A stretch of 64,000 bases of DNA from Rhodopseudomonas pentothenatexigens (GTDB lineage: Bacteria > Pseudomonadota > Alphaproteobacteria > Rhizobiales > Xanthobacteraceae): assembly GCF_900218015.1 (NCBI RefSeq), contig NZ_UFQQ01000005.1, forward strand, positions 186,001 to 250,000, given 5' to 3'. The position numbers and the translations under genes were made by a program. Below the pieces are notes generated by a model, which was not told the origin of the DNA, searched no databases, and was given only the letters and a program-made list of their open reading frames with translations. Positions 34,796 to 50,423 of this stretch are shown here, piece after piece (the stretch's first letter is position 1; every line of letters begins with the position of its first letter).

Positions 34796-34826
34796 TCGCA
34801 GCGTAGCTGATCGAACGACTGAAGGC

Positions 34827-34855
34827 GGCGGGGGCGACCCCGCCGTCTTTTTTTC
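34827..34855 (+). terminator. Rho-independent terminator after flagellin 1
   Basis: GGCGGGG (34827-34833) pairs with CCCCGCC (34838-34844) around a GNRA-type GCGA loop, followed by TCTTTTTTT. It lies 32 nt after the stop codon. Confidence 0.9.
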
Positions 34856-34947: not shown

Positions 34948-35880
34948 ATGACCGACATCGCCCCGACGGCAGATACAAACGCCGCGCCTCCGGACGCGCC
35001 GGCGCCGCATGCGCCGGGTCCCGACCGTATCCTCGCCGACATCATCGCCGCGCTGCCCGAACTGGCGCGGCATCACGCCCCGGGGGGAGCCGCCTACACC
35101 GCGCTGTCCTCGGCGGCGCGCAGCGCCGTGGTGGCGCTGTTCGCGCGCGGCGGCCGCGACGTGACGTTCGGCCCGTTCGGGCCGATCAGCTTTCCCTATC
35201 ACCGGATGGGCGCGGTGGACTCGCTCGACCTGTTCGGGCTCGATGAACTGATCCTGTTTTCGTTCTACTGGCAGAACCGCGGCCGCTACCGCCGCGTCGC
35301 CGACATCGGCGGCAATATCGGCCTGCACAGCCTGGTGATGGCGCGCTGCGGCTTTGCGGTCGAAACCTACGAACCGGACCCCGAGCACGTCGCGCTGTTT
35401 CAGGCCAACATGCGTGCCAACGGCATCACCACGGTCCACGTCAACGAGGCGGCGGTCTCGGCGCGAGCCGGCGAGGCGGAATTCCTGCGGCTGCGCGGCA
35501 ACACCACCGGCAGCCACATCGCCGGCGCCAAGCTCGATCCCTACGGCGAGATCGATCGCTTCAAGGTTCGGCTCGCCGCCTTTGACGACATTGCCGCAAC
35601 GGCGGACTTCGCCAAGATCGACGCCGAAGGCCACGAGGCGGTGATCATCACCTCGCTGCCGCGCGAACGCTGGGCGACGATCGACGTCATGCTCGAGATC
35701 GGCAGCGACGCCAACGCTTCGGCGATCTTCGACTATGCGCGCGACGCCGGCGTGCGTCTGTTCACCCAGAAGACCGGCTGGCGCCGGGCGGAGACGCTGG
35801 CCGACCTGCCGACCTCCTACAAGCAGGGCAGCGCGTTCCTCACCGCCAAGGATGCGATGCCCGGGCTGCCGCCGTCATAA
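34948..35880 (+). CDS. FkbM-family SAM-dependent methyltransferase
   Basis: About 310 aa. V-A-D-I-G-G-N-I-G-L-H-S near residue 115 is SAM motif I; E-T-Y-E-P-D-P follows as the acidic motif II, and K-I-D-A-E-G-H-E is the FkbM family signature. Members O-methylate sugars or small molecules. ATG 34948 is chosen; a TTG at 34924 is in frame, with no clear Shine-Dalgarno for either. The N-terminus is Ala/Pro-rich. Lying between a flagellin and sugar-nucleotide genes, it may methylate the flagellin glycan (inference). Confidence 0.85.
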   Translation: MTDIAPTADTNAAPPDAPAPHAPGPDRILADIIAALPELARHHAPGGAAYTALSSAARSAVVALFARGGRDVTFGPFGPISFPYHRMGAVDSLDLFGLDELILFSFYWQNRGRYRRVADIGGNIGLHSLVMARCGFAVETYEPDPEHVALFQANMRANGITTVHVNEAAVSARAGEAEFLRLRGNTTGSHIAGAKLDPYGEIDRFKVRLAAFDDIAATADFAKIDAEGHEAVIITSLPRERWATIDVMLEIGSDANASAIFDYARDAGVRLFTQKTGWRRAETLADLPTSYKQGSAFLTAKDAMPGLPPS

Positions 35881-36006
35881 TGATCCGCGCTTGCCAGGTA
35901 GTATTCCGAGGCGACTCGGGTCGCGCGGCGATGGCCGGCCATGATTTACACATTGCTAACGAATCACGCGCAACCGTGATGGCTCGGAATGCCGAGGACG
36001 CCGCCG

Positions 36007-36675
36007 ATGACGCAGTCGCGTAACAGCACCGCCCCCGTTCCCGACGACGTCCCTGAGGATGTCGCCGCGACGCCGCTGCTGTCGAAACGACAGATGCTCG
36101 GCTATTACGATCACCTTCGGGCGACGCTCGCTGCCGCACAGGCCTCCGATTGCGAAGGCCGGCCGTTCGCGCAGGAAGTCGCCGCCTCGCTGGTGATCGC
36201 CTGGGCCCGCGAGGTCCATGCCGAAGGCCGCAAGCTGATGTTCATCGGCAATGGCGGCAGCGCCGCGATCGCCAGCCATATGGCCACCGACTATTCCAAG
36301 AACGGCGGCATGCGCGCGCTCTGCCTCAACGATGGCGCGATGCTGACCTGTCTCGGCAACGACTACGGCTACGAGCAGGTGTTCGCCAAGCAGATCGAGC
36401 TGTTCGCGCAGGACGGCGATCTGCTGATCGCGATCTCCTCGTCCGGGCGTTCGCCGAACATCCTCAACGCGGTGGCTGCGGCCCGTGTCCGCGGCTGCCG
36501 GGTGATCACCCTGAGCGGATTTTCGGCGGACAATCCGCTGCGCCGCGAGGGCGACATCAATTTCTACCTCGCCTCCGATCAATACGGTTTCGTCGAGCTC
36601 GGCCATCTGACGATCTGCCATGCCATCCTCGATTTCGCCTGCGGCCAGCGCGTGCCGCTGCCGGCGGCCGGCTGA
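36007..36675 (+). CDS. SIS-domain isomerase, GmhA-like (sedoheptulose-7-phosphate isomerase)
   Basis: A 222-aa phosphosugar isomerase. F-I-G-N-G-G-S-A-A-I-A-S-H-M-A-T-D contains the phosphate-binding Ser/Gly loop, and A-I-S-S-S-G-R-S-P-N is the second phosphate loop, both as in GmhA. C-terminal E-L-G-H-L-T-I-C-H holds the catalytic His. GmhA makes D-glycero-D-manno-heptose 7-phosphate from sedoheptulose 7-phosphate. ATG 36007 has GAGGA 9 nt upstream. An HldE-like kinase/nucleotidyltransferase lies 6 kb on, so heptose activation is the natural reading. Confidence 0.88.
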   Translation: MTQSRNSTAPVPDDVPEDVAATPLLSKRQMLGYYDHLRATLAAAQASDCEGRPFAQEVAASLVIAWAREVHAEGRKLMFIGNGGSAAIASHMATDYSKNGGMRALCLNDGAMLTCLGNDYGYEQVFAKQIELFAQDGDLLIAISSSGRSPNILNAVAAARVRGCRVITLSGFSADNPLRREGDINFYLASDQYGFVELGHLTICHAILDFACGQRVPLPAAG

Positions 36676-36814
36676 CCGGACCAAACGAGACCGATCCGGG
36701 CGGCCCTATCAGGGCGTGCGGAAATGCGTTTATCTCTTGCATTCAGGGCTGAAGTGATTCGTCGGCGCTGCGAAGCGTCGCGCCGGGGACGGGCTGATCA
36801 GTGGGAATGACGCG

Positions 36815-37753
36815 ATGAAGATCCTGGTGACCGGCGCCTGCGGCTACGTCGGGACCACGCTGGTGCCGAAGCTGCTGGCGCGCGGCGACGACGTGGTGGC
36901 GTTCGACATCATGTGGTTCGGCAACGATCTGCCGCCGCATCCGAAGCTGACGGTGGTTCGCGGCGACGTTCGCGATACGGGCTCGATCGATCTCTCCGGG
37001 ATCGACGCGATCGTGCATCTCGCTTCGGTCGCCAACGATCCGTGCGGCGACCTCGACCCCAAGCTGACCTGGGAGATCAGCGCGCTCGCCACCATGCAGC
37101 TCGCCGACCGCGCCGCGCGCGCCGGGATCCAGCGCTTCGTCTACGCCTCGTCCGGCAGCGTCTACGGCATCAAGGACGAAGAGCAGGTCACCGAGGACCT
37201 GACGCTGGAGCCGATCTCCGAATACAACAAGACCAAGATGGTGGCCGAGCGGGTGATGCTCAGCTACGCAGGCGACATGGCGGTGCAGATCGTCCGCCCG
37301 GCGACGGTGTGCGGGCCGTCGCCGCGGATGCGGCTCGACGTCTCGGTCAACATGCTGACCATGCAGGCGCTGACCAATGGCGAGATCACCGTGTTCGGCG
37401 GCAATCAGGTCCGCCCCAACATCCATATCGACGACATCACCGATCTTTACCTGATGCTGCTCGACCGGCCCGAACTGCGCGGCATCTACAATGCCGGGTT
37501 CGAAAACATCTCGATCCTGGACATCGCCAAAATGGTCGACGCCCAGGTGCCGACCAAGATCACCGTCACCGCCTCGAACGATCCGCGCTCGTACCGGATC
37601 AATTCCGACAAGCTGCTGGCGACCGGCTTCAAACCGAAGAAGACGGTGAACGACGCGATCCGCGAGATCATCGTCAAATTCCAGCGCGGCGAATTGAAGA
37701 ACGAGGATCGTCACTACAATCTGCGCTGGATGCAGCGGAGCCTGCAGGCGTGA
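36815..37753 (+). CDS. NAD-dependent nucleotide-sugar epimerase/dehydratase
   Basis: A 312-aa extended SDR. T-G-A-C-G-Y-V-G at the N-terminus is the NAD-binding motif. S-S-G-S-V-Y-G and Y137-N-K-T-K141 give an intact Ser/Tyr/Lys active site. N-I-H-I-D-D-I-T near 210 is the sugar-binding region. It probably epimerises or dehydrates an activated heptose or hexose. Its TGA overlaps the GTG of the next gene, indicating translational coupling. Confidence 0.85.
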   Translation: MKILVTGACGYVGTTLVPKLLARGDDVVAFDIMWFGNDLPPHPKLTVVRGDVRDTGSIDLSGIDAIVHLASVANDPCGDLDPKLTWEISALATMQLADRAARAGIQRFVYASSGSVYGIKDEEQVTEDLTLEPISEYNKTKMVAERVMLSYAGDMAVQIVRPATVCGPSPRMRLDVSVNMLTMQALTNGEITVFGGNQVRPNIHIDDITDLYLMLLDRPELRGIYNAGFENISILDIAKMVDAQVPTKITVTASNDPRSYRINSDKLLATGFKPKKTVNDAIREIIVKFQRGELKNEDRHYNLRWMQRSLQA

Positions 37754-38787
37754 CCGGCATCGTTCCCGCGTCTGCGCCGTGTGCGATGGCCCGCGCGGGC
37801 TTCGACAAATATCTGGTGGTCGGCTCGAACTCGTTCACCGGTGCGTCGATGGTCGGCTATCTGCTCGACCAGGGCGCCGAGGTCGTCGGCATCAGCCGCT
37901 CCGACGAGCCGCACCCGGCATTCCTGCCGTATCGCTGGAAGAAGGCCGATCGTTTCCGGTTTCACAAGCTCGACCTCAACCACGATCTCGATGCGATCAT
38001 GCAGCTGGTGACCGCCGAGCGGTTTCCCTGCATCATCAATTTCGCAGCTCAGAGCATGGTCGGTGAGAGCTGGGCCAACCCGGACCATTGGTTCATGACC
38101 AATGTGGTGTCCACGGTGCGGCTGCACGAGCGCTTGCGCGCTTGCGATTTCCTCGAGCGCTACGTTCACGTCACCACGCCGGAAGTGTACGGCAACGCCA
38201 CCGGCACCCTCACCGAGGATGCGGTGTTCGATCCCTCGACGCCCTATGCGGTGTCGCGCGCGGCCGGCGACATGAGCCTGCGCTCGTATTTCCGTGCCTA
38301 CGGCTTTCCCGTGCTGTTCACCCGCGCCGCCAACGTCTATGGGCCGGGGCAGCGGCTGTACCGGATCGTGCCGCGCACCATCCTGTTCATCAAGCTCGGC
38401 CGCAAGCTGCAACTGCACGGCGGCGGCACATCGGAGCGCTCGTTCATCCACGCAGCCGACGTCGCCGACGCCACGCGGCGGATCGCCTGCAACGGCAGGC
38501 TCGGCGACAGCTATCACATCTCCACCGACCGCATCGTCACCATCCGCGCGCTGGTCGAGATGATCTGCACGATGATGGGGGCACGGTTCGAGGACCAGGT
38601 CGAGATCGTCGGCGAGCGGCTCGGCAAGGACGCCGCCTACAAGCTCGACAGCAGCAAGCTCCGCAACGAGCTCGGCTGGAGCGATCAGATCACGCTGGAG
38701 CAGGGTATCGAACAAACGATCGCCTGGATCGATCGCTGGTTCGAGGAACTGAAGAGCCAGCCGTTCGACTACGCGCACAAGCCTTGA
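37750..38787 (+). CDS. GDP-mannose-4,6-dehydratase-like protein with altered catalytic motif
   Basis: A 345-aa extended SDR. The NAD motif reads G-S-N-S-F-T-G, with Ser at the middle Gly position. The catalytic motif is Y166-A-V-S-R170, where the usual Lys of Y-x3-K is Arg. R-A-A-N-V-Y-G-P-G-Q-R-L-Y-R-I and R-S-F-I-H-A-A-D-V-A-D follow as in GMD/dTDP-glucose dehydratases. GTG 37750 overlaps the previous stop (GTGA); ATG 37786 is an alternative. It may be a dehydratase with changed chemistry, or inactive. Confidence 0.8.
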   Translation: MTGIVPASAPCAMARAGFDKYLVVGSNSFTGASMVGYLLDQGAEVVGISRSDEPHPAFLPYRWKKADRFRFHKLDLNHDLDAIMQLVTAERFPCIINFAAQSMVGESWANPDHWFMTNVVSTVRLHERLRACDFLERYVHVTTPEVYGNATGTLTEDAVFDPSTPYAVSRAAGDMSLRSYFRAYGFPVLFTRAANVYGPGQRLYRIVPRTILFIKLGRKLQLHGGGTSERSFIHAADVADATRRIACNGRLGDSYHISTDRIVTIRALVEMICTMMGARFEDQVEIVGERLGKDAAYKLDSSKLRNELGWSDQITLEQGIEQTIAWIDRWFEELKSQPFDYAHKP

Positions 38788-38795
38788 GGATCGCG

Positions 38796-39455
38796 ATGGG
38801 TCAGGAAATCGATCTGCTCGTCAATTATCCGCGCACCAAGCGCAACGTCGACGAGCGCGGCCAGACCAAGTCCGAAGAGGATCGCGCGATCGCGCGCAAA
38901 TTCGGCAAGGAGTTCTTCGACGGCGACCGCCGCCACGGCTACGGCGGCTTCAATTACATGCCGCGGTTCTGGCAGCCGGTGATCCCGACCTTCCAGCAGC
39001 ATTTCGGGCTCGACGCCTCGTCCTCGGTGCTCGACGTCGGCTGCGCCAAGGGCTTCATGCTGCACGACATGGCCGAGCTGATCCCCGGCATCACCGTGAA
39101 GGGTGTCGACGTGTCGGACTACGCCATCGCGCATGCGATCGACGACATGAAGCCGCATCTTTCCGTCGCCAGTGCGACGAAGCTGCCGTTCCCGGACAAA
39201 TCGTTCGACGTGGTGATCTCGATCAACACCGTGCATAACCTCGTCCGTGACGACTGCGCGACCGCGCTGCGCGAGATCGAGCGGGTGGCGCGCAAAGGCG
39301 CGTTCATCACCGTCGACGCCTATCGTGACGACGAGGAGAAGCGGCGGATGATGGCGTGGAATCTGACCGCGCAGACCATCATGCATGTCGACGAGTGGAA
39401 GGCGTTCTTCGCGCAAGTCGGCTACACCGGCGACTACTACTGGTTCATCCCATGA
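38796..39455 (+). CDS. Class I SAM-dependent methyltransferase
   Basis: A 219-aa methyltransferase. V-L-D-V-G-C-A-K-G-F-M near residue 75 is SAM motif I, G-V-D-V-S-D-Y motif II, and L-P-F-P-D-K-S-F-D-V-V-I-S the methyltransferase 11-type motif IV. GAGGA 6 nt before ATG 38796 overlaps the previous gene's stop. Its own stop overlaps the next ATG (ATGA). It probably modifies the sugar made by this operon; other small acceptors are possible. Confidence 0.82.
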   Translation: MGQEIDLLVNYPRTKRNVDERGQTKSEEDRAIARKFGKEFFDGDRRHGYGGFNYMPRFWQPVIPTFQQHFGLDASSSVLDVGCAKGFMLHDMAELIPGITVKGVDVSDYAIAHAIDDMKPHLSVASATKLPFPDKSFDVVISINTVHNLVRDDCATALREIERVARKGAFITVDAYRDDEEKRRMMAWNLTAQTIMHVDEWKAFFAQVGYTGDYYWFIP

Positions 39456-40429
39456 ATCCCGAGACGTCGCGCCGCCTGCTGTTCGACATGCTGCGGATCC
39501 GCAGCGTGGAGGAGACCATCGCGGCACGTTACGGCGAGCAGAAGATGCGCTGCCCGACGCATCTGTCGGTCGGGCAGGAGGCGGTCGCCGCGGCCGCTGG
39601 TGCGGTGCTGAGGCCGACCGATCTCGCGGTGAGCGGCCATCGCGCTCACGCGCATTATCTCGCCAAAGGCGGATCGCTGAAGGCGATGATCGCCGAGATC
39701 TACGGCAAGGTCACCGGCTGTGCCCGCGGCAAGGGCGGCTCGATGCATCTGATCGACGAGAGCGTCGGCTTCATGGGCTCGACCGCGATCGTCGGCGGCA
39801 CGGTGCCGGTCGGCGTCGGGCTGTCCTATCCGATGAAGCTGAACAGCACCGATCAGATTTCCTGTGTGTTCCTCGGCGACGCGGTGCCGGAGACCGGCGT
39901 GTTCTTCGAGTCGGTGAACTTCGCGGTGGTGAAACAACTGCCCGTGCTGTTCCTCTGCGAGAACAACGGCTACTCGGTGTATTCGCCGCTGAGGGTGCGG
40001 CAGCCGCCCGGCCGCAAGCTGCACGAGCTGGTCGCCGGCTTCGGCCTCGAGACGCATCACGGCGACGGCAATGATGCCCGTGCGGTGGTTGCGGCGCTGA
40101 GCGAAGGCGTGGCGGCAATCCGCGCCGGCGAGGGGCCGCGGTTCTACGAGTTCGAGACCTATCGCTGGCGCGAGCATTGCGGGCCGAACTACGACAACGA
40201 CATCGGCTATCGCTCGGCGGCTGAATACGAGGCGTGGAAGCTGCGCGATCCGGTGCCGGCGCTGCAGCGCGCGCTGATCACCGAAGCCATCGTGACCGAG
40301 GCCGATGTCGCCGACATGCAGGCGGAAATCGATGCCGAGATCGAGGAGGCGTTCGCCTTCGCCGAAAGCTCGCCGTTCCCGCCGCCCGAAGACGCCTTCA
40401 CCGACGTCTATGCGTCGACCGCAGGCTGA
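39452..40429 (+). CDS. TPP-dependent dehydrogenase/transketolase-like E1 alpha subunit
   Basis: A 325-aa protein of the pyruvate/acetoin dehydrogenase E1-alpha family. The TPP motif starts G-D-A-V-P-E-T-G-V-F-F-E-S and ends C-E-N-N-G-Y-S-V-Y, i.e. the G-D-G...N-N motif with Ala for the last Gly. G-H-R-A-H-A-H-Y and R-G-K-G-G-S-M-H are the catalytic-loop regions. It pairs with the E1-beta gene 10 nt downstream. No E2 or E3 gene is nearby, which argues against a classical oxo-acid dehydrogenase complex and for a stand-alone TPP carboligase in sugar synthesis. Confidence 0.85.
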   Translation: MNPETSRRLLFDMLRIRSVEETIAARYGEQKMRCPTHLSVGQEAVAAAAGAVLRPTDLAVSGHRAHAHYLAKGGSLKAMIAEIYGKVTGCARGKGGSMHLIDESVGFMGSTAIVGGTVPVGVGLSYPMKLNSTDQISCVFLGDAVPETGVFFESVNFAVVKQLPVLFLCENNGYSVYSPLRVRQPPGRKLHELVAGFGLETHHGDGNDARAVVAALSEGVAAIRAGEGPRFYEFETYRWREHCGPNYDNDIGYRSAAEYEAWKLRDPVPALQRALITEAIVTEADVADMQAEIDAEIEEAFAFAESSPFPPPEDAFTDVYASTAG

Positions 40430-40439
40430 GGAGGGCGGA

Positions 40440-41492
40440 ATGGCAACGAGCTTCGCCGCCGCGATCCGGGATGGGCTCGCCACCGCGCTTACGGCCGATC
40501 CGAACGTGATCTGCTTCGGGCTCGGCACCGACGACCCCAAGGGCGTGTTCGGCACCACGCTCGATCTGCACAAAGAGTTCGGCTCGCACCGCGTATTCGA
40601 CATGCCGACCTCGGAAGCGGCGATGACCGGCTTTGCGATCGGCGCGGCGCTCAACGGGATGCGGCCGGTGCTGACGCATCAGCGGCTCGACTTTGCGCTG
40701 CTGTCGCTCGATCAGCTGGTCAACAACGCCGCGAAATGGCGTTTCATGTTCGGCGGCAAGCGCGGCGTGCCGATCACCATCCGGATGATCATCGGCCGCG
40801 GCTGGGGGCAGGGCCCGACGCATTCGCAGAGCCTGCAATCCTGGTTCGCGCATATTCCCGGCTTGAAAGTGGTGATGCCGACCACCGCGGAGGACGCCAA
40901 GACGCTGCTGCTCGGATCGATCTTCGACGACGACCCGGTGATATTTCTCGAGCATCGCTGGCTGCACAACATGCAGGGCGAGGTGCCGGCCGGCGACGTG
41001 CGCGAGCCTCTGGGCAAGGCGCGCGTGGTGCGCCAGGGCGATGCGGTGACCATCGTGGCGATGAGCTACATGACGGTCGAGGCGTTGCACGCGGTCGATC
41101 ATCTCGCCGCGCAAAGCATCGCCTGCGAGCTGATCGACCTGCGCAGTATCCGCCCGCTGGACTGGCCCACAGTGATCGCCTCGGTGCAGAAGACCGGCCG
41201 GCTGCTGGCGCTCGACAGCGGCCATCTGACCGGCGGCATTGCCGGCGAGATCGTGGCCCGGATCGCGACCGACCACTTCGCCAGCCTGAAATGCGCGCCG
41301 CAGCGGCTCGCCGCGCCGGACGTGCCGGAAGCGACCAGCCCGGCGCTGACCAAGAATTATCACGTCCGCGCCGAACACATCGCCGAGGCCGTCGGCCGGA
41401 TGCTCGGCCGCGAGGTCGAAACCGCCTCGCTGGTCGCCCAACGCCAGTTCCCGCACGACGTGCCGGGCAACTGGTTTTCGGGACCGTTCTGA
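40440..41492 (+). CDS. TPP-dependent E1 beta subunit
   Basis: A 350-aa partner of the preceding E1 alpha. It has the transketolase pyrimidine-binding domain (residues 1-175: M-P-T-S-E-A-A-M-T-G-F-A-I-G-A-A, whose Glu activates TPP) and the C-terminal transketolase domain (V-T-I-V-A-M-S-Y-M-T near 205, E-L-I-D-L-R-S-I-R-P-L-D near 236). The G-A-G-G-A-G Shine-Dalgarno is strong. It forms an alpha2-beta2 type enzyme with 39452. It is followed by an orphan RBS/start and a palindromic repeat. Confidence 0.85.
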   Translation: MATSFAAAIRDGLATALTADPNVICFGLGTDDPKGVFGTTLDLHKEFGSHRVFDMPTSEAAMTGFAIGAALNGMRPVLTHQRLDFALLSLDQLVNNAAKWRFMFGGKRGVPITIRMIIGRGWGQGPTHSQSLQSWFAHIPGLKVVMPTTAEDAKTLLLGSIFDDDPVIFLEHRWLHNMQGEVPAGDVREPLGKARVVRQGDAVTIVAMSYMTVEALHAVDHLAAQSIACELIDLRSIRPLDWPTVIASVQKTGRLLALDSGHLTGGIAGEIVARIATDHFASLKCAPQRLAAPDVPEATSPALTKNYHVRAEHIAEAVGRMLGREVETASLVAQRQFPHDVPGNWFSGPF

Positions 41493-41499
41493 GGGAGCG

Positions 41500-41648
41500 A
41501 TGATGGCACAGACTTTCCACGTCATTGCGAGGAGGCGAAGCCGACGAAGCAATCCAGGAACTCGGTGCACCGTGCTCCTGGATTGCTTCGCTCCGCTCGC
41601 AATGACGGGGCGAGGGCGGGACTCGAATAGGTGGAGGCCGTCATGTCC
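41500..41648 (+). pseudogene. Orphan ribosome-binding site and start codon running into a repeat
   Basis: GAGGGAG is followed by ATGATG at 41500. The frame begins M-M-A-Q-T-F, then reads through the palindromic repeat at 41520 and stops near 41648. M-A-Q-T-F resembles the M-S-V-T-F start of the dehydrogenase at 41643, which is in another frame. This looks like the original start of the dehydrogenase gene separated from it by repeat insertion, rather than a working 50-aa gene. Confidence 0.4.
41520..41607. repeat. 88-bp palindromic repeat element, copy 1
   Basis: Outer arms CGTCATTGCGAG (41520-41531) and CTCGCAATGACG (41596-41607) and inner arms CGAAGCAATCCAGGA (41545-41559) and TCCTGGATTGCTTCG (41576-41590) are perfect inverted repeats. 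The element would fold into one long hairpin. A related copy lies at 44920-45006. Similar GTCATTGCGAG...CTCGCAATGAC elements are, from memory, scattered through this bacterial group. Confidence 0.92.
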
Positions 41649-42698
41649 GTGACCTTCCGCGCCGCGGTGCTGACCGAGCTGAACCAGCCGCTCTCGATCG
41701 AGACCGTGGAGGCGCCGGCGCTCGCGGCCGGACAGGTGCTGGTCAAGCTGGCGTACTCCGGAGTCTGCCACAGCCAGCTGATGGAAGCGCGCGGCGGGCG
41801 CGGGCCGGATCGCTATCTGCCGCACATGATGGGCCACGAAGGCTCGGGCGTCGTCGTCGAGATCGGCGCGGGCGTCACCAAGGTCGCGCGCGGCGACCGC
41901 GTTATTCTCGGCTGGATCAAGGGGCAGGGCGCCGACACCCAGGGCGTGCGCTACGCAAGCGGCGAGCGCATCATCAACGCCGGCGCCGTCACCACCTTCA
42001 ACGAATACGCCGTGGCCGCGGAGAACCGCCTCACGCCGCTGCCGGCCGGGCTGCCGATGGACGCCGCGGTGCTGTTCGGCTGCGCGCTGCCGGTCGGCGC
42101 CGGCATCGTCATCAACATCGCAAAGCCGCAGCCCGGTTCGACGCTGGCGGTGTTCGGTCTCGGCGGCATCGGGCTCGCGGCGCTGATGGCCTGCAAGCTG
42201 TTCGCCTGCAAGCAGGTGATTGCGGTCGATGTCGAAGCCGCCAAGCTGAAGATGGCGACCGAGTTCGGCGCGACGACCGTGATCGACGCCTCGCGCACCG
42301 ACCCGGTCGAGGAGATCCGCAAGCTCACCGGCGGGATCGGCGTCGACATCGCGATCGAATCCGCCGGCCTCACCCGCGTGATCGAGCAGGCGTTCGACGC
42401 CACCCGGCGGTTCGGCGGGCTGTGCGTGTTCGCCTCGCATCCGCGCAGCGGCGAGAAGATTGCGCTCGATCCGTTCGAGCTGATCTGCGGCAAGCGTATC
42501 CTCGGCACCTGGGGCGGCGATGCCAAGCCGGAGCGCGACATCGCCTTGCTGGCGGGACTGTATCGCGACGGCAAGCTGCCGCTCGATGCGATGTTCGCCC
42601 GGCGCTACACGCTCGACGAGATCAACGAGGCGCTGGACGATCTCGAACATCGCCGCAGCGTGCGCCCGCTGATCGAAATCGACCCGTCGCTGAGGTGA
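41643..42698 (+). CDS. Zinc-dependent MDR alcohol dehydrogenase
   Basis: A 351-aa medium-chain dehydrogenase. The catalytic zinc site is seen as G-V-C-H-S-Q near residue 43 and G-H-E-G-S-G near 66. The structural-zinc four-Cys lobe is absent or reduced. F-G-L-G-G-I-G-L-A near 175 is the NAD(P) Rossmann motif. It oxidises or reduces an alcohol/ketone, here plausibly a sugar hydroxyl. ATG 41643 has GGAGG 6 nt upstream. A palindromic repeat and a relic start lie just before it. Confidence 0.87.
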   Translation: MSVTFRAAVLTELNQPLSIETVEAPALAAGQVLVKLAYSGVCHSQLMEARGGRGPDRYLPHMMGHEGSGVVVEIGAGVTKVARGDRVILGWIKGQGADTQGVRYASGERIINAGAVTTFNEYAVAAENRLTPLPAGLPMDAAVLFGCALPVGAGIVINIAKPQPGSTLAVFGLGGIGLAALMACKLFACKQVIAVDVEAAKLKMATEFGATTVIDASRTDPVEEIRKLTGGIGVDIAIESAGLTRVIEQAFDATRRFGGLCVFASHPRSGEKIALDPFELICGKRILGTWGGDAKPERDIALLAGLYRDGKLPLDAMFARRYTLDEINEALDDLEHRRSVRPLIEIDPSLR

Positions 42699-42703
42699 CG
42701 ACG

Positions 42704-44188
42704 ATGCTGCATCCCGAGACCGGCACCACGCTCGCGGAGATCCGGAAGAAAGCCGGGCGTCGCCGCAGCATCGTGTTCGTGTCGGGCAATTTCAACATCG
42801 TCCACCCCGGCCATCTGCGGCTTCTGAAATTCGCCGCCGACTGCGGCGACTATCTCGTGGTCGGCGTCACCGCCGATCCCGGCTACGACTGGATGCTGCC
42901 GGCCGAGCTGCGGCTCGAAGGCGTGCGCGCGATCGGCGTGGTCGATCACGCTTTCCTGCTGCACGACGCGCCGGAGGACTTCATCGCGGCGCTGCAGCCG
43001 AGCGTGGTGGTCAAAGGCAAGGAGCACGAGGGCGCCGACAATCCGGAGAAGGCGGTGCTCGACGGCTATGGCGGCCGGCTGGTGTTCTCCTCCGGCGAAG
43101 TCGCATTTTCGTCGCTCGATCTGATCAAGCGCGAGTTCCGCGAGTTCAACCCGTCGTCGATCGTCAAGCCGCTCGACTATCCGCGGCGGCATCGCTTCGA
43201 ACCGCTCGAGCTGAAGAGCGTGCTGGCGGGATTTCCGAAGCTGCGGGTGCTGGTGATCGGCGACCTGATCGTCGACGAATACATCGCCTGCGATCCGCTC
43301 GGCCTGTCGCAGGAAGATCCGACCATCGTGGTGACCCCGGTGCTGCGCGAGCTGTTCGTCGGCGGTGCCGGGATCGTCGCCGGTCATGCTGCCGGCATGG
43401 GCGCGCAGGTCGGTCTGCTCACTGTCGGCGGCGGCGACGCGATGGCGGATTTCGCCCGCGAGCGGCTGGCGTCGTACAATGTCGACGCCACCATCCTCAC
43501 CGACGAGAGCCGGCCCACCACCACCAAGCAGCGGTTCCGCGCCGGCAACAAGACGCTGCTGCGCGTCAGCCATCTCAAGCAGCACGATGTCGATGCCGAT
43601 CTGCAGACACGGATGCTGGAGACGATCGAGCATCGGCTGCCGACGACTGATCTCGTGGTGTTCTCGGATTTCAACTACGGATGTCTGCCGACCCGGCTGG
43701 TCGAGGCGGTCGGGCAGGCGTGCCGCGCCCGCGGCGTCCCGATGGTGGCCGACAGCCAGTCGTCGTCGCAGGTCGGCGACATCTCGCGCTTCACCGAGAT
43801 GCTGCTGATCAAGCCGACCGAGCGCGAGGCGCGGCTGGCGATGCGCGATTTCGATTCCGGTCTGGTCGTGCTGGTCGAAGCGTTGCGGGAAAAGGCGCGG
43901 GCCAAGAACGTGATCCTGACGCTGGCGGCCGAGGGCTTGTTGGTGCACGCCGAAACCGGCAGCGCCGGCACGGTGGTGACCGACCGGCTGCCGGCGTTCA
44001 ACACCGCCCCGAAGGATGCTGCCGGCGCCGGCGACTCGTTCTTCGTCTGTGCCGCGCTGGCGCTGGCGATCGGCACCGACATCTGGCGCAGCGCCTATCT
44101 CGCCTCGATCGCCGCCGCCTGTCAGGTCGGCCGGATCGGCAACATCCCGGTCACGGCGCGCGACATTATCCGGGAGCTCGACACGTGA
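42704..44188 (+). CDS. HldE-like bifunctional protein, nucleotidyltransferase-kinase order reversed
   Basis: A 494-aa fusion. Residues 20-150 are a cytidylyltransferase-fold domain with G-N-F-N-I-V-H34-P-G-H37, the HxGH nucleotide motif. Residues about 180-490 are a PfkB/ribokinase domain ending in A-A-G-A-G-D444-S-F-F, with the catalytic Asp. E. coli HldE has the kinase first and transferase second; here the order is swapped. The likely role is phosphorylating heptose 7-phosphate at C1 and activating it with a nucleotide. No GmhB phosphatase, needed between these steps, is in the window. Its stop overlaps the next GTG. Confidence 0.85.
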   Translation: MLHPETGTTLAEIRKKAGRRRSIVFVSGNFNIVHPGHLRLLKFAADCGDYLVVGVTADPGYDWMLPAELRLEGVRAIGVVDHAFLLHDAPEDFIAALQPSVVVKGKEHEGADNPEKAVLDGYGGRLVFSSGEVAFSSLDLIKREFREFNPSSIVKPLDYPRRHRFEPLELKSVLAGFPKLRVLVIGDLIVDEYIACDPLGLSQEDPTIVVTPVLRELFVGGAGIVAGHAAGMGAQVGLLTVGGGDAMADFARERLASYNVDATILTDESRPTTTKQRFRAGNKTLLRVSHLKQHDVDADLQTRMLETIEHRLPTTDLVVFSDFNYGCLPTRLVEAVGQACRARGVPMVADSQSSSQVGDISRFTEMLLIKPTEREARLAMRDFDSGLVVLVEALREKARAKNVILTLAAEGLLVHAETGSAGTVVTDRLPAFNTAPKDAAGAGDSFFVCAALALAIGTDIWRSAYLASIAAACQVGRIGNIPVTARDIIRELDT

Positions 44189-45114
44189 GCGGGAGTGCCA
44201 AGGCGCTGCTGGTCGCGGCTGGTCTCGGCACGCGGCTCGCGCCGCTCACCGACGTGCTGCCGAAATGCCTGATGCCGATCGCAGGCCGCCCGCTGCTCGG
44301 GCTGTGGCTGCAGATGCTGAGCGAGGCCGGCTTCTCCGAGGTCGTCGTCAATCTGCATCACCATGCGGAGCTGGTGAGCGAGTACATCCGCCGCAGCCCA
44401 TGGTCGGGGTGGGTGATCCTCGCGCCCGAGGACACGCTGCTCGGCACCGCCGGCACGCTGCTGCGGCATCGCGAGCGCTTCATGGACGGCCCGACGCTGT
44501 TCGCCCATGCCGACAATCTCAGCCTGTTCGATCCGCGCGCCTTCCTCGCCGCCCATGCGCAGCGACCGCGGGATTGCGCGATGACGATGATGAGTTTCGT
44601 CACCGATCATCCGCAGAGCTGCGGCATCCTCACGCTCGATTCCGCCGGCCGCGTGCTGGAGATGGACGAGAAGCCGCAGCATCCCAAGGGCAACCTCGCC
44701 AACGCCGCGGTTTATCTCGTCGAGCCCGAGGTGATCGCCTTCATCGCCTCGCTCGGCAAGCCGGTGGTCGATTTCTCGACCGAAGTGCTGCCGGTGTTCA
44801 TGGGCCGGATCTTCTCGTTCCACAACGGCAGCTATCACCGCGACATCGGCAATCCCTCCAGCCTGGCGCTGGCGCAGCTCGATTTTCCGCTTGCGGCTAT
44901 TCAGTTTGAAGCCTCTTCCCGTCATTGCAAGGAGGCGCCGCCGACAACGCAATCCAGCCCCGCGCATGGCGCCTCTGGATTGCTTCGCATTCGGCTCGCA
45001 ATGACGGAGACCAATAACGACGATCCCTGGTATGGCCTGATGACCGACAATAGCGGCGCTCTAGCCAGAGCTTTCGCCCAGGCTGCGGCAAAGACCTATG
45101 GAGGTCAGCGATGA
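44185..45114 (+). CDS. HddC-like sugar-1-phosphate nucleotidyltransferase carrying an in-frame repeat
   Basis: A 309-aa NTP_transferase-family enzyme. V-A-A-G-L-G-T-R-L-A-P-L-T and P-K-C-L-M-P-I-A-G-R-P-L are the nucleotide-binding loop and Lys, as in HddC/RmlA/GlmU. It would link a sugar 1-phosphate to a nucleotide. Residues about 246-274 are encoded by an 87-bp palindromic repeat (44920-45006) inserted in frame; the Trp/Asp-rich C-terminal tail resumes after it. GTG 44185 overlaps the previous stop (GTGA), and its stop overlaps the next ATG. Confidence 0.85.
   Translation: MSGSAKALLVAAGLGTRLAPLTDVLPKCLMPIAGRPLLGLWLQMLSEAGFSEVVVNLHHHAELVSEYIRRSPWSGWVILAPEDTLLGTAGTLLRHRERFMDGPTLFAHADNLSLFDPRAFLAAHAQRPRDCAMTMMSFVTDHPQSCGILTLDSAGRVLEMDEKPQHPKGNLANAAVYLVEPEVIAFIASLGKPVVDFSTEVLPVFMGRIFSFHNGSYHRDIGNPSSLALAQLDFPLAAIQFEASSRHCKEAPPTTQSSPAHGASGLLRIRLAMTETNNDDPWYGLMTDNSGALARAFAQAAAKTYGGQR
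44920..45006. repeat. 87-bp palindromic repeat element, copy 2, inside a coding sequence
   Basis: Outer arms CGTCATTGCAAG (44920-44931) and CTCGCAATGACG (44995-45006) match copy 1 closely. The centre is CAATCCAG...CTCTGGATTG. At 87 bp (29 codons) it keeps the reading frame of the nucleotidyltransferase and contains no stop in that frame. Confidence 0.9.
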
Positions 45115-45917
45115 GCGGCAGCGTCGTCATCGCGGCGATCTCCAGTGACATCGGCGTCAGGCTGGCGCGGCTCTATCGCGCGCAGGGCTGCGACGTCATC
45201 GGCACCTATCGGTCGAGTGAGAATTTGAGCGAGCTGCAGGCTGATGCCGGCATTCATCTGGTGCATTGCGATCTGACCGACCCCGGCAGCGTCAGCAAAG
45301 CGGCGGCGGAGATCGCGGCGCTCGGCAAGCCGTGGGAGCGGCTGATCAGTGCCGCCGGGCAACTGTCGCCGATCGGCGATTTCTTCGGGCGCGATTTCGA
45401 GGATTGGGCGGCGTCGCTGTCGCTGAATTCGGTGGCGCAGATCCGGCTGCTGCACGCGCTGTATCCGCATCGCGCGCAGGGGGCGATCACCAAAGTCGCG
45501 TTCCTGGTCGGCGGCGGCATCAATGGCGCGTTCCGCAACTACTCGGCCTATTGCCTCGGCAAGGTGATGCTGGTCAAGCTGTGCGAGCTGCTCGACGACG
45601 AGTACCAAGACGTGCACGCGATCGCGGTCGGCACCGGCTGGGTCAACACCAAGATCCATCGCCAGACCGTGGAGGCCGGCGACGACGCCGGCGTCAATCT
45701 GCGCCGCACCCTCGAATTCCTCGACAGCGGCGCGCAGGGCACGTCCTACGAAGACATCTTCGGCTGCATCGAATGGGCGTTCGATGCCGGCCGCGCCGCG
45801 ACCGGCGGGCGCAATTTCTCGGTGGTGCACGATGCCTGGCGGGACGGCGGCGCAGCGCTGACCGAACGGCTCGCCGCCGATCCGAACATCTACAAGCTGC
45901 GCCGGCACGGCAATTGA
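45111..45917 (+). CDS. Short-chain dehydrogenase/reductase
   Basis: A 268-aa SDR. The catalytic Y147-x3-K151 is intact, with a Ser/Thr region before it. The N-terminal nucleotide motif is degenerate: I-A-A-I-S-S-D-I-G where T-G-x3-G-I-G is usual, so cofactor binding may differ. It probably reduces a keto group on the operon's sugar intermediate. ATG 45111 overlaps the preceding stop. Confidence 0.78.
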   Translation: MSGSVVIAAISSDIGVRLARLYRAQGCDVIGTYRSSENLSELQADAGIHLVHCDLTDPGSVSKAAAEIAALGKPWERLISAAGQLSPIGDFFGRDFEDWAASLSLNSVAQIRLLHALYPHRAQGAITKVAFLVGGGINGAFRNYSAYCLGKVMLVKLCELLDDEYQDVHAIAVGTGWVNTKIHRQTVEAGDDAGVNLRRTLEFLDSGAQGTSYEDIFGCIEWAFDAGRAATGGRNFSVVHDAWRDGGAALTERLAADPNIYKLRRHGN

Positions 45918-45939
45918 TCGGCGCGCGAGGAGGACAAGC

Positions 45940-47742
45940 GTGAAGCTCTCCGATTACGTCATCGATTTTCTGGCGCGGCGCGGCGTCACCCATGTGTTCG
46001 GCATTTCCGGCGGCGCCGCGGTGCACATGTTCGATTCCGCCCAGCGCCATCCGGATGTCACGCCGATCTTCCCGCAGCACGAGCAGGCGGCTGCGATCGC
46101 CGCCGACGGCTATGCGCGCGCCACCGGCAAGCTCGGCGTCGCCATCACCACCTCGGGTCCGGGCGCCACCAACCTGCTGACCGGGGTGTGCTGCGCGTAT
46201 TACGACTCGGTGCCGACGCTGATGATCACCGGGCAGGTCGCCACCCATCGGCTGAAGGGCAAGAATCAGATCCGCCAGCTCGGTTTTCAGGAAACCGACG
46301 TCACCTCGATCTTCGCCACGGTGACCAAATACGCGGTGCAGATCTCCGATCCCACCACCATCCGCTATCATCTGGAGAAGGCGTTCCACCTCGCATTCGA
46401 AGGCCGGCCCGGTTCGGTGCTGATCGATCTGCCGGACGATCTGCAACGCGCCGAGATCGATCCCGACGCGTTGCCGGCCTTCACGCCGGAGCCGGAGGCT
46501 GGATCGAACGATCTCGACGCCGCGGTCGCGGCGCTGCTGCCGCTGATCGCGCGGGCCAAACGGCCGGTGCTGGTGCTCGGCGGCGGGCTGTCGACGCCGC
46601 GGATCGGGTCGATGCTGGATCAGCTCGTCGACCGCCTCGGCATGCCGGTGCTGACCACCTGGGCGGCGACCGATCTGATCGCAGCCGACCATCCGCTGCG
46701 GGTCGGGCCGTTCGGGGTTTACGGGCCGCGGCTCGGCAACTTCACGGTGCAGAACGCCGACCTGATCCTGTGCCTCGGCAGCCGGCTGTCGCAGAACGTC
46801 ACCGGCGGCATTCTGCCGTCGTTCGCGCGCGAGGCGACGATCGTGATGGTCGACGCCAGCCGCGGCGAGATGGACAAGTTCGACGACCGCGGCATTCGCA
46901 TCGCGACGCGGATCGCGGCGCGGCTCGATGACTTCGTGCCGAAGCTGCTCGCCGCGATCGAGGCGGCGCCGCCGCGCGACGCGTGGCTGAGTACAATCGC
47001 GCATTGGCGCAGCACGTTGCCGGACGATCGGCCCGGCCCCGCGCCCGACAATGCCGGTTTCGTCGACGCCTACGACTTCATCGACAAGTTGAGCGACGCT
47101 GCGCCCGCCGATGAACTGCTCTATGTCGACACCGGCGGCAACCTGACCTGGACCTGCAACGGCTTCCGCATCAAGCGCGGCCAGCGACTGATCTCGGACT
47201 GGAACAACACCGCGATGGGCTACGCGCTGGCGGCGTCGATCGGCGCCGCGGTACAGGCGAAAGGCGGCGTCACCTGCATCATCGGCGACGGCGGCCTGAT
47301 GCTGTCACTCGGCGAACTGGCGCTGCTGAAGCGGCACCAACTGCCGGTGCGGCTGATGCTGTTCAACAATCACGGCCACGGCATCCAGAAGCAGACGCTG
47401 GAGACCTGGCTCGACGGCCACTATGTCGGCGTCGATGCGCCGAGCGGATTGTCGTTCGTGGACTTCCGTAAAGTTGCCGAGGCGATGGACCTGCCGGTAG
47501 TCACGATCAGCCGCAGCACCGACATCGCCGGCCAGCTCCGCGACGTCTATGCCCGGAAGGGGCCGGTGTTCTGCAATGTCGAGATCAACCCCGGGCAGAA
47601 GCTGTACCCGGTGCTGAAGTTCGGCGCGCCGCTGGAAAGCCAGTTGCCGGCGATCGACGACGAACTGATCCAACGCGAGATGCTGATCGCGCCGTTCGTC
47701 GCTGGTGCTGCGCCGAAGCACAGCGGCGGCGCCGGCGTGTAG
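45940..47742 (+). CDS. IlvB-like TPP-dependent enzyme (acetolactate-synthase superfamily)
   Basis: A 600-aa three-domain TPP enzyme. The N-terminal P-Q-H-E48-Q-A-A-A has the catalytic Glu; T-S-G-P-G-A-T-N-L follows; the central domain (about 190-330) is the DHS-like/FAD-binding region; I-G-D450-G-G...F-N-N is the TPP/Mg motif. No ilvN regulatory subunit is adjacent and all neighbours are sugar genes, so branched-chain amino-acid synthesis is unlikely. Relatives such as YerE add a two-carbon unit to NDP-keto-sugars to give branched sugars; that is the favoured idea. GTG 45940 has GGAGGA upstream. Confidence 0.85.
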   Translation: MKLSDYVIDFLARRGVTHVFGISGGAAVHMFDSAQRHPDVTPIFPQHEQAAAIAADGYARATGKLGVAITTSGPGATNLLTGVCCAYYDSVPTLMITGQVATHRLKGKNQIRQLGFQETDVTSIFATVTKYAVQISDPTTIRYHLEKAFHLAFEGRPGSVLIDLPDDLQRAEIDPDALPAFTPEPEAGSNDLDAAVAALLPLIARAKRPVLVLGGGLSTPRIGSMLDQLVDRLGMPVLTTWAATDLIAADHPLRVGPFGVYGPRLGNFTVQNADLILCLGSRLSQNVTGGILPSFAREATIVMVDASRGEMDKFDDRGIRIATRIAARLDDFVPKLLAAIEAAPPRDAWLSTIAHWRSTLPDDRPGPAPDNAGFVDAYDFIDKLSDAAPADELLYVDTGGNLTWTCNGFRIKRGQRLISDWNNTAMGYALAASIGAAVQAKGGVTCIIGDGGLMLSLGELALLKRHQLPVRLMLFNNHGHGIQKQTLETWLDGHYVGVDAPSGLSFVDFRKVAEAMDLPVVTISRSTDIAGQLRDVYARKGPVFCNVEINPGQKLYPVLKFGAPLESQLPAIDDELIQREMLIAPFVAGAAPKHSGGAGV

Positions 47743-47755
47743 CGGGGGAAGGGGG

Positions 47756-49903
47756 TCAGCGCCCGCGGCGGAGCGCCCGATCCTTGGCCTCGTCGAACGG
47801 GGTGGCGCACCAGCGTTTCCACATCGTCCGGTAAGCGTCTTCGACCGCGCGGGTGTAGGCGGCCGGGCCGCAGCGCTCCAGGATGAAGTCGCGCAGGCCG
47901 CGCCGGATTGAGCGCAGCCGCTCCAGGTCCGGTTTGCTGGCGATCTCGATGTAGCGCGCATCGTCGGTGGCGATGAAGTCCGGCAGCCCGGCGGCAGCGA
48001 GCACCGCGCAGCCGACCCGGCTGGAGACGGCGTTGCCGAGCCGGCTGACGACCGCGACGCCCATGTACAGCGCTTCCCAGGTCGAGACGCCGCCGGCTTG
48101 CGGAAACGGATCGAGGCAGAGATCGATCTGCTTGAGAGTTTCGAGGTGGTCCTGGCGCGAACTGGAGCCGAGCAAGGTGATCCGGTCCGCCGCGATGCCG
48201 CGCGCGCCGAACTTCTCGAGCAGCGTCTGCCGCACCGCCGGATCGTCGATCTGATGATCCTTCAGGATCAGCCGTGACGTCGGCACCGCCGCGAGCAGCT
48301 GCGCCCACACCTCGATCGCCGCGTCCGAGATCTTGGAGATCCGGTTCAGCGAGCCGTAGGTCAGGTAGCCGTTGCGGTCGAAAGGCAGGTCCTGCGAGCG
48401 CCACTCGTCGGGCAACGGCTCGACGATCACGATCGACGGCAGGTCGTAGATCGTCTCGGCGTAGAAGTGCCGGTCCTCGACCGGGATCGCCACCGGGTCG
48501 CCGAGCAGATAGTCCATCACCGGCAGGCCGGTTCCGGTGGCGTGGCCCCAGGCGGTGACCTGGACCGGCGCCGGCTTGCGGGCGAACACGCGCAGCCGGT
48601 TGCCGCCGGAATGGCCGGACAGATCGACCAGCACGTCGACCTTGTCCTGCTTGATCTGGTCGGCGAGCTGCTGGTCGGTCATGTGAGTCATGTCCCGCCA
48701 TTTGTCGGCGGTCGCCTCGAACGCCCGGGTGACGTCGTCGGGGATCACCACGCCCGAGTACAGCACCACTTCGAATTGGCTGCGGTCGTGATGCTCGATC
48801 ACCGGGCGGAACGAAAACGCCGCCGAATGCGCCCGGAAGTCGGCCGACACGTAGCCGACCACCAGACGGCGGTCGGGATTGCGGTCGTTGGCCGGCGGCA
48901 CCGCGCAGGCCCGGTAGATCGGCGCGCCGACTTGCGTCCACCAGGTCTTGCGGGTCGCCTGCTGGGCCTCGATCGTGGAACCGGCGCAGAAATCCATCGA
49001 GAAGATCTTGCTCGAGATCGCCGCTTCGAAGTTCGGGCGCAGCTCCAGCGCGCGGCTGTGCAGGGTGGTGGCGGTCTCGGCGTCGCCGAGCGCGGCCATG
49101 CAATTGCCGAGCAGCGTCAGCGCCGGTACCGAGTTCGGCTCGACCTGCAGCACCGCAGTGCAGGTCGCCAGCGCGTCCTTGACGTTCTTCATGAACAGCA
49201 ACGTCTCGGCGCGGGCAATGCCGGCCTCGACCGGCCGCTTGCCGATCGACAGCGCGCGGTCGTAGCTCGCCAGCGCCTGATCGAACTGCTTCAGTTCTTT
49301 GAAGGTGCTGGCGCGATTGATGAAGGCGATGTCGTTGAGCGGGTCGATCTCGATCGCCTTGGCGTAGCTCGCCAGCGCCTCGTCGTAGCGGCCGAGCTTG
49401 TGCAGCGCGTTGCCGCGATCGTTCCAGCTGTCGGCGCGGCTGGGCAGCAGCTCGATCGATTTGTCGAAGCTGTCGACCGCCTCGTCGTGGCGGGAGAGGC
49501 CGGCCAGCGCCAGCCCGCGATTGGCGTATGCGAGCGCCAGGCCGGGATCGAGCGCGAGCGCCTTGTCGCAGGCCGCGACGGCGTCCGCGAACCGCCCCGA
49601 GGCGATCAGCATGATGCCCATGTCGGAATGCGCCTGGGCAGAGCCCGGCTCGATCAGCAGCGCACGCTTCAGCGATCGGATGCCGAGCTCGAGATTGCCG
49701 CTCTGATACTCGGCGAGCCCGTAGAAATGCAGTGCGGTGAAATTGTCCGGCGCCTTCTTCAGCACCTTCTTGTAAGCGGAGCGCGCTTCGTCGAGCTGGC
49801 CGTGCTGATGCAGGACCCGGGCACGCATCAGCAGCACCACCGGCTCGTAAGCTTTGTCCGCCTGGTTGCGGGTGGGAACGACCTTGCTACGTCCGGGCTG
49901 CAT
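47756..49903 (-). CDS. TPR-GT41 (OGT/SPINDLY-like) glycosyltransferase, candidate flagellin glycosyltransferase
   Basis: A 715-aa protein. Residues about 20-310 contain 8-9 TPR units (A-x-x-x-Y-x-x-A-L-x-x-x-P type). The C-terminal half is a GT-B fold of the O-GlcNAc transferase family: G-Y-V-S-A-D-F-R-A-H-S carries the conserved His region, G-S-L-N-R-I-S-K the nucleotide-contact Lys, and D-P-F-P-Q-A-G-G-V-S-T the nucleotide-sugar loop. TPR-GT proteins such as Caulobacter FlmG bind and glycosylate flagellin in the cytoplasm. It sits between the sugar operon and flagellin 2, in opposite orientation to both, with its promoter probably in the gap at 49904-50423. Confidence 0.9.
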   Translation of the reverse strand: MQPGRSKVVPTRNQADKAYEPVVLLMRARVLHQHGQLDEARSAYKKVLKKAPDNFTALHFYGLAEYQSGNLELGIRSLKRALLIEPGSAQAHSDMGIMLIASGRFADAVAACDKALALDPGLALAYANRGLALAGLSRHDEAVDSFDKSIELLPSRADSWNDRGNALHKLGRYDEALASYAKAIEIDPLNDIAFINRASTFKELKQFDQALASYDRALSIGKRPVEAGIARAETLLFMKNVKDALATCTAVLQVEPNSVPALTLLGNCMAALGDAETATTLHSRALELRPNFEAAISSKIFSMDFCAGSTIEAQQATRKTWWTQVGAPIYRACAVPPANDRNPDRRLVVGYVSADFRAHSAAFSFRPVIEHHDRSQFEVVLYSGVVIPDDVTRAFEATADKWRDMTHMTDQQLADQIKQDKVDVLVDLSGHSGGNRLRVFARKPAPVQVTAWGHATGTGLPVMDYLLGDPVAIPVEDRHFYAETIYDLPSIVIVEPLPDEWRSQDLPFDRNGYLTYGSLNRISKISDAAIEVWAQLLAAVPTSRLILKDHQIDDPAVRQTLLEKFGARGIAADRITLLGSSSRQDHLETLKQIDLCLDPFPQAGGVSTWEALYMGVAVVSRLGNAVSSRVGCAVLAAAGLPDFIATDDARYIEIASKPDLERLRSIRRGLRDFILERCGPAAYTRAVEDAYRTMWKRWCATPFDEAKDRALRRGR

Positions 49904-50423
49904 CTGATGATCCGAATCTGGCGGAGTGATCGTATCTCGTCAGGCCCTGTGACGCACCTCAGAGAGACCCGCAGGGTTCATCCTCGGGTACGCGCGTAAA
50001 CAATTCATAAACCATGGCCCGCCGACCGCGCAAAAGCCGTGCCGGAGCAACGGAAAACCCGGCTCGCCCGGCTGCAACAGGGCTGGGAAGGTCGCGAATC
50101 ACGCTGCGTGAATCGCTCCTCGGCGGCGAGCGACGGCCATGAGTGTGCCAATGGCCTTTGATTTGATTGACGTTTTTCGCCTTAAGATGCTGTTAACCAT
50201 ATTTTAAATGGCCCTCGCCATAGTCCCCGGTGCTCAGGAAGAAGGTAGGTCGAGAATCGGCCGCGTTGATCCGGTGCGCACGTGTGCGGTGCGTCCGAGG
50301 TCCCTCTCCAGAACAGGCGTCTAAACACAACCGGCAAGCGTCGCGGCGGCAACGACCGTTCGACGCGAGCAGCGACGTGCGACTGAAGGTCGACGTCCAG
50401 CGCGGATCAGGAAGGTTTGCATC
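49904..50423. other. 520-bp intergenic region between the glycosyltransferase and flagellin 2
   Basis: No gene is seen. It holds a CtrA box (50193-50207), an imperfect inverted repeat around 50094-50116 (GCGAATCACG-CTG-CGTGAATCGC), and a leader ending in CAGGAAGGTTTGCATC, nearly the same as at flagellin 1. The upstream part must also hold the promoter of the divergent glycosyltransferase gene. Confidence 0.5.
50193..50207 (+). promoter_or_regulatory. CtrA-type box TTAA-N7-TTAA upstream of flagellin 2
   Basis: TTAA at 50193-50196 and TTAA at 50204-50207 with a 7-nt spacer; the first half also reads TTAACCAT, the second published CtrA motif. It lies about 217 bp before the flagellin ATG. Confidence 0.65.

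Follow-up and report, generated by a model that had tools for sequence, protein, structure and literature searches.

Glycosylation of flagellin by a glycosyltransferase (GT) with tetratricopeptide repeats (TPR) is described for Caulobacter FlmG, a protein of 596 amino acids (aa) with a TPR N-terminus and a GT-B-type C-terminus, which uses pseudaminic acid, needs NeuB and belongs to an alphaproteobacterial flagellar system with FlaF (PMC7591256). Insertions in the gdh gene of Bradyrhizobium ORS285, which lies within an eleven-gene cluster near rfaL, abolish its bradyrhizose O-antigen (PMC4743980). Among thiamine diphosphate (ThDP) enzymes, YerE is known to attach an acetyl (C2) branch to keto-sugars, and the E1alpha/beta pairs AviB1/B2 and Pau11/12 are proposed to do so, with one ThDP class per pathway as far as the cited accounts go (PMC4753412, PMC12247030). 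Here we describe a locus of Rhodopseudomonas pentothenatexigens (GCF_900218015.1, genome of 5.38 Mb) that resembles each of these systems in part. It lies in a window of 64,000 nucleotides (contig NZ_UFQQ01000005.1, positions 186,001 to 250,000, forward strand), whose numbering is used throughout. Matches with 83-98% protein identity come from the named Rhodopseudomonas strains XCP, BR0M22 and AAP120.

The locus is an island of 13 intact genes at 34948-49903, twelve sugar genes on the forward strand and one TPR-GT41 gene on the reverse strand, flanked by two flagellin genes. The gene order is flgE (26375), flgK (28323), flgL (30203), flagellin A, the sugar genes (34948-47742, forward), the TPR-GT41 gene (reverse), flagellin B, flbT and flaF; FlbT, like FlaF, is part of the Caulobacter flagellar system. 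With moderate confidence, and from sequence comparison, we regard the island as a probable flagellin-glycosylation cassette that would build a C2-branched, probably heptose-derived nucleoside diphosphate (NDP) sugar for transfer by the TPR-GT, with flagellins A and B as its likely acceptors. This view is carried by the linkage to flagellins, the joint gain and loss of sugar genes and transferase, the flagellar clade of the transferase, and the homology to the bradyrhizose cluster. The features are as follows, with the short-chain and medium-chain dehydrogenase/reductases abbreviated SDR and MDR.

32117..34795, forward: flagellin A, 892 aa, DUF1522, left bracket (Pfam/NCBIfam, position conserved)
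34823..34854, forward: intrinsic terminator following flagellin A, marks the island's left edge (T-run end is the end of empty-site homology)
34948..35880, forward: FkbM-family methyltransferase (TIGR01444, 70 bits)
35989..36675, forward: SIS-domain isomerase, GmhA-like (TIGR00441, 97 bits, under the cut-off of 209)
36815..37753, forward: SDRa, nucleotide-sugar dehydrogenase/epimerase-like (71-77% identity in 26/31 loci outside the genus)
37786..38787, forward: GDH, a 4,6-dehydratase-like SDR, homologue of ORS285 gdh (signature GSNS[FY][ST]GA, TPEVYG, YAVSR)
38796..39455, forward: class-I S-adenosylmethionine methyltransferase of the E1-type module (family match)
39452..40429, forward: E1 alpha, ThDP enzyme of alpha-keto-acid dehydrogenase type (PF00676, 199 bits)
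40440..41492, forward: E1 beta (PF02779/PF02780)
41643..42698, forward: zinc-type MDR reductase (family match)
42704..44188, forward: HldE-like fusion (HLD), nucleotidyltransferase then PfkB kinase (full-length orthologue in 10/16 genus genomes)
44185..45114, forward: NTP_transferase sugar-1-phosphate nucleotidyltransferase (PF00483, 98 bits; NCBIfam)
45111..45917, forward: SDRb, SDR reductase of the IlvB-like module (family match)
45940..47742, forward: IlvB/YerE-like ThDP enzyme (family match)
47756..49903, reverse: TPR-GT41 glycosyltransferase, 715 aa (PF13844 and TPR families)
50179..50423, forward: retained flagellin B leader, right edge of the island (empty-site homology resumes at ~50179)
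50424..53087, forward: flagellin B, 887 aa, right bracket (Pfam/NCBIfam, position conserved)

All of the genes and families that an original prediction, made from the letters alone, had named between the two flagellins are present and intact by Pfam and NCBIfam; start codons within overlapping reading frames were refined. Both flagellins exceed the NCBIfam PRK14708 cut-off, and the TPR-GT gene converges on the IlvB-like gene, tail to tail, and diverges from flagellin B. The HLD fusion has its nucleotidyltransferase domain in the N-terminal half and its kinase domain second, which is the opposite of the domain order in E. coli HldE.

Protein searches of 16 Rhodopseudomonas genomes found flagellin in all 16, the TPR-GT in 11, and a full orthologue of the HLD fusion (84-100% identity) in ten, the remaining six having matches of at most 34%. 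Ten genomes thus have an E1-type island in the flagellar slot and one (G391) has a different island of HLD type next to FlgL; the slot is empty in five, from which island and TPR-GT are jointly absent. In all ten island genomes (the window and nine that were mapped) the order from FkbM to TPR-GT is identical and lies between both flagellins. The flagellins are 406-418 bp apart between alignment ends in four of the island-less genomes, and the site in the fifth (G385), at a contig end, looks alike. Homology to the empty site stops at 34854, the final T of the flagellin A terminator, and resumes at ~50179, 245 bp before flagellin B; because the end of the T-run coincides with the end of homology, we take the terminator as the left edge of the island. 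A FlgK tree was built from 15 Rhodopseudomonas genomes (without G385) and G088; counted over its rows other than G391 and G088, the presence or absence of the island requires at least three changes, so the whole set has come or gone together on more than one occasion. Compared with G108, G089 and G392, all 13 genes have dN/dS values of 0.04-0.43, the TPR-GT being the least constrained against G089 and G392, and together with the identical order in 10/16 genomes these values place the island beyond chance.

Two further features of this flagellar region vary within the genus. In genomes G028 and G392, one with the island and one without, the interval from flgL to flagellin A has LysR-like and MFS-like genes inserted at an identical point, and the G028 insert also holds AraC and GGDEF/EAL-like proteins (judged by eye). 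The G391 island adjoining FlgL (5935-15800 of L149, G391:C346:26001-41818) contains a HAD phosphatase, two SDRs, an HLD-like gene divided between two frames that overlap, a member of the UDP-glucose-dehydrogenase family, a methyltransferase, a GDH relative of 36% identity and the beginning of a transketolase half; its presence points to an exchange of sugar pathways at the flagellar locus.

The TPR-GT is the only glycosyltransferase of the island and the sole PF13844/GT41 protein found in the genome (140 bits against a cut-off of 25). The closest PDB matches of its GT domain are SPINDLY (241 bits) and the bacterial TPR protein 5djs (240 bits), with human O-GlcNAc transferase (OGT, 121 bits) further off, and like SPINDLY and OGT it joins TPR to GT41. 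Residues H359, S360, N520 and K524 align with the active-site residues H495, S496, N661 and K665 of SPINDLY, so that the essential Lys and neighbouring site residues, whose roles are described in PMC9715652, are kept; these four and Q602 are invariant in 12/12 aligned relatives. At the donor-sugar position SPINDLY has Tyr and human OGT has Cys, whereas all twelve TPR-GTs, here in a bacterial flagellar setting, have Gln (Q602), so the Tyr or Cys typical of GT41 is lacking. The transferase differs from FlmG in its length (715 aa), in its clear GT41 domain and in having no nonulosonate gene in its island.

Matches to the TPR-GT at E 1e-90 or better occur in 9/149 genomes of a family-wide scan. 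In a tree of 35 TPR-GTs, which leaves out the L087 copy, a contig-end copy of G068 (L193) and a 32% fragment in L166, the 12 flagellin-adjacent proteins form one clade with support 100/99, and the other 23 have no flagellin match within the stretches fetched; the L193 stretch has a weak 31% FlgE-like match ~7 kb from its TPR-GT copy. The predicted link between transferase and flagellins is supported by a clade that is flagellin-adjacent in 12/12 members and two genera. The member from another genus, G088, is ~50% identical, forms a long branch, and lies between flgL and two flagellins (L194, G088:C34:103001-122000) with no adjoining sugar island; that genome has an HLD-type island on a different contig (L054). 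A PF13844 match was also obtained in Caulobacter vibrioides. Genomes of the Bradyrhizobium genus have loci with two or three TPR-GT genes in tandem (L139, L092, L093, L090, L134, L195-L197); several are close to the bradyrhizose cluster, and no flagellin match lies nearby.

The island shares five core genes with the ORS285 bradyrhizose cluster, with identities of 62% (GDH), 76% (SDRa), 55% (HLD), 52% (NTP_transferase) and 34% (SIS), as well as an MDR, a methyltransferase and the GDH signature. The eleven ORS285 genes were counted as HLD, NTP_transferase, SDRa, SIS, GDH, N and C halves of a transketolase, MDR, a small protein with no Pfam match, an APH-family protein and a methyltransferase; both gdh primers of Busset et al. 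(PMC4743980) match the G303 locus without mismatch. In that cluster the split transketolase, the APH-family protein and the small protein stand in place of E1alpha/beta, there are no IlvB-like, SDRb or FkbM genes, and the location is near rfaL rather than flagellins. GDH matches at E 1e-70 or better were found in 14/242 Bradyrhizobium-genus genomes (genus label from the ORS285 match), 9/385 genomes of a class sample and 2/398 of a phylum sample, the last two counts including this genome. The signature GSNS/TPEVYG/YAVSR is present in 24 of 27 rows, the three misses being 26% paralogues, and two aligned dTDP-glucose 4,6-dehydratases have TDEVYG and Y-x3-K where the GDH family has TPEVYG and YAVSR. 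The best PDB match of SDRa is 6vo6, which we take to be a Campylobacter GDP-heptose dehydrogenase.

Of 41 GDH loci, 19 have E1alpha/beta, 19 have split transketolase, none has both, and three are cut by contig ends; this mutual exclusion makes the island a relative of the bradyrhizose cluster and not the cluster itself. About seven genera are represented on each side, Rhodopseudomonas supplying 10/19 E1 loci and Bradyrhizobium 13/19 transketolase loci. An IlvB-like gene is present in 16/41 loci (15 with E1, none with transketolase, and one cut by a contig end), and an FkbM gene in 14/41, always with the IlvB-like gene. The GDH tree, in which several long branches leave exact placements unsure, requires five to six changes of the module label, with strong branches forcing at least two for E1 and at least four for transketolase, and the modules have therefore probably been swapped on a conserved core. 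The sugar pathway is mobile, serves lipopolysaccharide (LPS) in at least one relative and is tied to the flagellum in Rhodopseudomonas.

The structure of the sugar and its transfer to flagellin are predicted from enzyme families. Ten to twelve enzymes would build one unusual nucleotide sugar, starting from a sugar phosphate, probably sedoheptulose-7-phosphate, isomerised by the SIS protein; the isomerase, kinase and nucleotidyltransferase functions together suggest this heptose start. The kinase half of the HLD fusion would phosphorylate the isomerised sugar, the other half and/or the NTP_transferase would nucleotidylate it, and the two SDRs could oxidise or dehydrate the NDP-sugar to a keto-sugar. 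With pyruvate as donor, E1alpha/beta may then attach an acetyl (C2) unit to the keto group, which would become a tertiary alcohol, and a second C2 unit may be added by the IlvB/YerE-like enzyme; two ThDP enzymes together with two reductases suggest two additions. Reduction of the resulting ketones would fall to the MDR (probably acting on the C2 branch) and the SDR, and the two methyltransferases would finish the sugar, with FkbM a candidate O-methylase. Transfer of the sugar by the TPR-GT41 to Ser/Thr residues of the two neighbouring flagellins would take place in the cytoplasm, ahead of their export. The predicted thiamine-dependent carbon addition accords with the presence of two ThDP classes known or proposed for C2 sugar branching (PMC12247030, PMC4753412). 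In the cited accounts the YerE, AviB1/B2 and Pau11/12 pathways have one class each, whereas the island has both, as do the 15 of 19 E1 loci with an IlvB-like gene.

The pathway would thus be related to the bradyrhizose cluster in a modular way: an E1 module would replace the split transketolase on a shared core, and in Rhodopseudomonas the whole would have been captured, along with a flagellar TPR-GT, between two flagellin genes in tandem. A more specific combination is held only tentatively and is rather doubtful: that the flagellin carries a C10-or-larger sugar of the bradyrhizose family, made from a heptose by the two ThDP classes in series, that the flagellin locus is an exchange slot swapping whole pathways, and that the same core with the transketolase module makes bradyrhizose, as C7 + C2 + C1 = C10 if the methyltransferase is a C-methylase.

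Several observations weigh against the cassette as proposed. The GmhA, HldE and HddC models all score under curated cut-offs, those of GmhA and HldE being nevertheless the best matches (gmhA 97 of 209, rfaE I 183 of 345 and rfaE II 60 of 181.5 bits), which makes the starting sugar uncertain. SPINDLY Y744 and T748 correspond to Q602 and V606, so fucose-like donor use is not implied, and polar effects of the gdh insertion are not excluded by Busset et al. themselves (PMC4743980). The original prediction of an island dedicated to flagellin stands within the genus, where 10/10 copies are beside flagellins, and fails for the pathway elsewhere: of the GDH loci outside the genus, 0/31 have a flagellin match over the 10-60 kb fetched, an outcome that the prediction had itself named as refuting, and the best-studied relative serves LPS. 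Its tie to giant flagellins is lost, as G141 has two long flagellins without the island and the TPR-GT of G391 adjoins a short one; long flagellins occur without the island, flagellin length does not track it, and this link was rejected. G391 also keeps the TPR-GT between flagellins without this island. A NeuB/PseI-type gene is indeed missing from the island, as had been stated (twelve sugar proteins and TPR-GT, by Pfam), and a NeuB-family gene is present elsewhere in the genome (C42:79135). NeuB occurs in 4/16 genus genomes, all island-bearing, but is lacking in 6/10 island genomes, and a nonulosonate link was rejected.

It is unlikely, in our judgement, that the product of the island is a sugar of the O-antigen or of another part of LPS and that the flagellin site is merely convenient, with the TPR-GT unrelated or on the LPS side. 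The loss of O-antigen in the ORS285 gdh mutants (PMC4743980) favours such a role, and the O-antigen of R. palustris CGA009 is reported to contain a C-4-branched sugar (Marchetti 2018, cited in PMC9912281), which places sugars of this kind in the LPS of the genus. TPR-GT relatives with no flagellin nearby also adjoin or lie within ~20 kb or so of the bradyrhizose cluster in 5/14 Bradyrhizobium loci: three in tandem ~16-22 kb away in ORS285, two in G321 and three in G341 at ~17-18 kb, and one each in G338 and G229, adjoining or at most 3 kb away. No relatives were found in the other nine loci, where at most ~10 kb on each side of GDH was fetched. Those copies are nevertheless separate from the flagellar clade. 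The island itself has no flippase, polymerase, ligase or ordinary GT, and apart from G391 the TPR-GT is present or absent along with it. In the window, Wzy_C and GT1 genes do lie 16 kb upstream of flgE, but Wzy_C and/or GT1 also occupy the equivalent position in three genomes that lack the island, and none was seen in the stretch of island-bearing G089 (four island-less and four island-bearing genomes were compared, and the G141 stretch starts too late to tell).

We give the same low weight to a single NDP-sugar pool that would supply both flagellin, through the TPR-GT, and O-antigen, through GTs elsewhere. The genome has both outlets, the TPR-GT and the nearby Wzy_C locus, and it has no second YerE-like enzyme among the 12 of 14 TPP_C matches fetched, the next-best being ilvB at 29% identity; a C-4-branched O-antigen sugar of this strain, if any, would probably use that of the island. 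The retention of GT1 and/or Wzy_C in the three island-less genomes speaks against such sharing. That the TPR-GT puts GlcNAc, fucose or another common sugar on flagellin, with the island making something else, appears very improbable, even though UDP-GlcNAc and GDP-fucose are the donors for which GT41 enzymes are best known (PMC9715652) and G088 has a flagellar TPR-GT without this island alongside: TPR-GT and island occur together in ten of 16 genomes and are both absent in five, while G391 has its different sugar island by FlgL and G088 its HLD-type island on another contig. A flagellin-glycosylation cassette remains the reading that we prefer.

Elsewhere in the window, SDR, GT1 and Wzy_C (O-antigen-ligase family) genes occupy 5230-10120, upstream of the flagellar genes; the Wzy_C/GT1 pair was considered as part of the island and rejected on the distribution given above. 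Between this polysaccharide locus and flgE is a PMT_2-family membrane glycosyltransferase gene (19910-21406), present in 3/4 island-less and 4/4 island-bearing genomes compared. A hybrid histidine kinase of 1414 aa with duplicated kinase modules (21919-26163) is divergent from flgE and has 76-90% identity in 7/8 genomes compared, with no match in G067. At the right end are genes for a TetR-type regulator (58579-59559), an HlyD-type adaptor (59246-60487) and the ACR_tran protein (60500-63652) of an RND efflux pump. About 140 kb away, L173 (G000:C42:72001-92000) holds the NeuB-family synthase together with CMP-sugar-synthetase-like and small HAD-like genes (neighbours judged by eye).

A review, as far as its text goes, lists split-transketolase candidates for sugar branching only from Streptomycetes and E1-type enzymes mainly from antibiotic pathways (PMC12247030). 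Both types are present in the proteobacterial sugar loci described here, beyond that scope. Judged by title and start of abstract, searches of open PMC papers yielded no treatment of Rhodopseudomonas flagellin glycosylation or of a branched-chain sugar on flagellin. To our knowledge the flagellin glycans described so far are nonulosonates, viosamine and similar sugars, and a carbon-branched higher sugar would, if the proposal is true, be a new class of flagellin glycan. If the reading is right, comparison of these loci would also help with the biosynthesis of bradyrhizose, which is still unsolved: the fixed core would mark the scaffold enzymes, and the swapped C2-adding module those that choose the branch.

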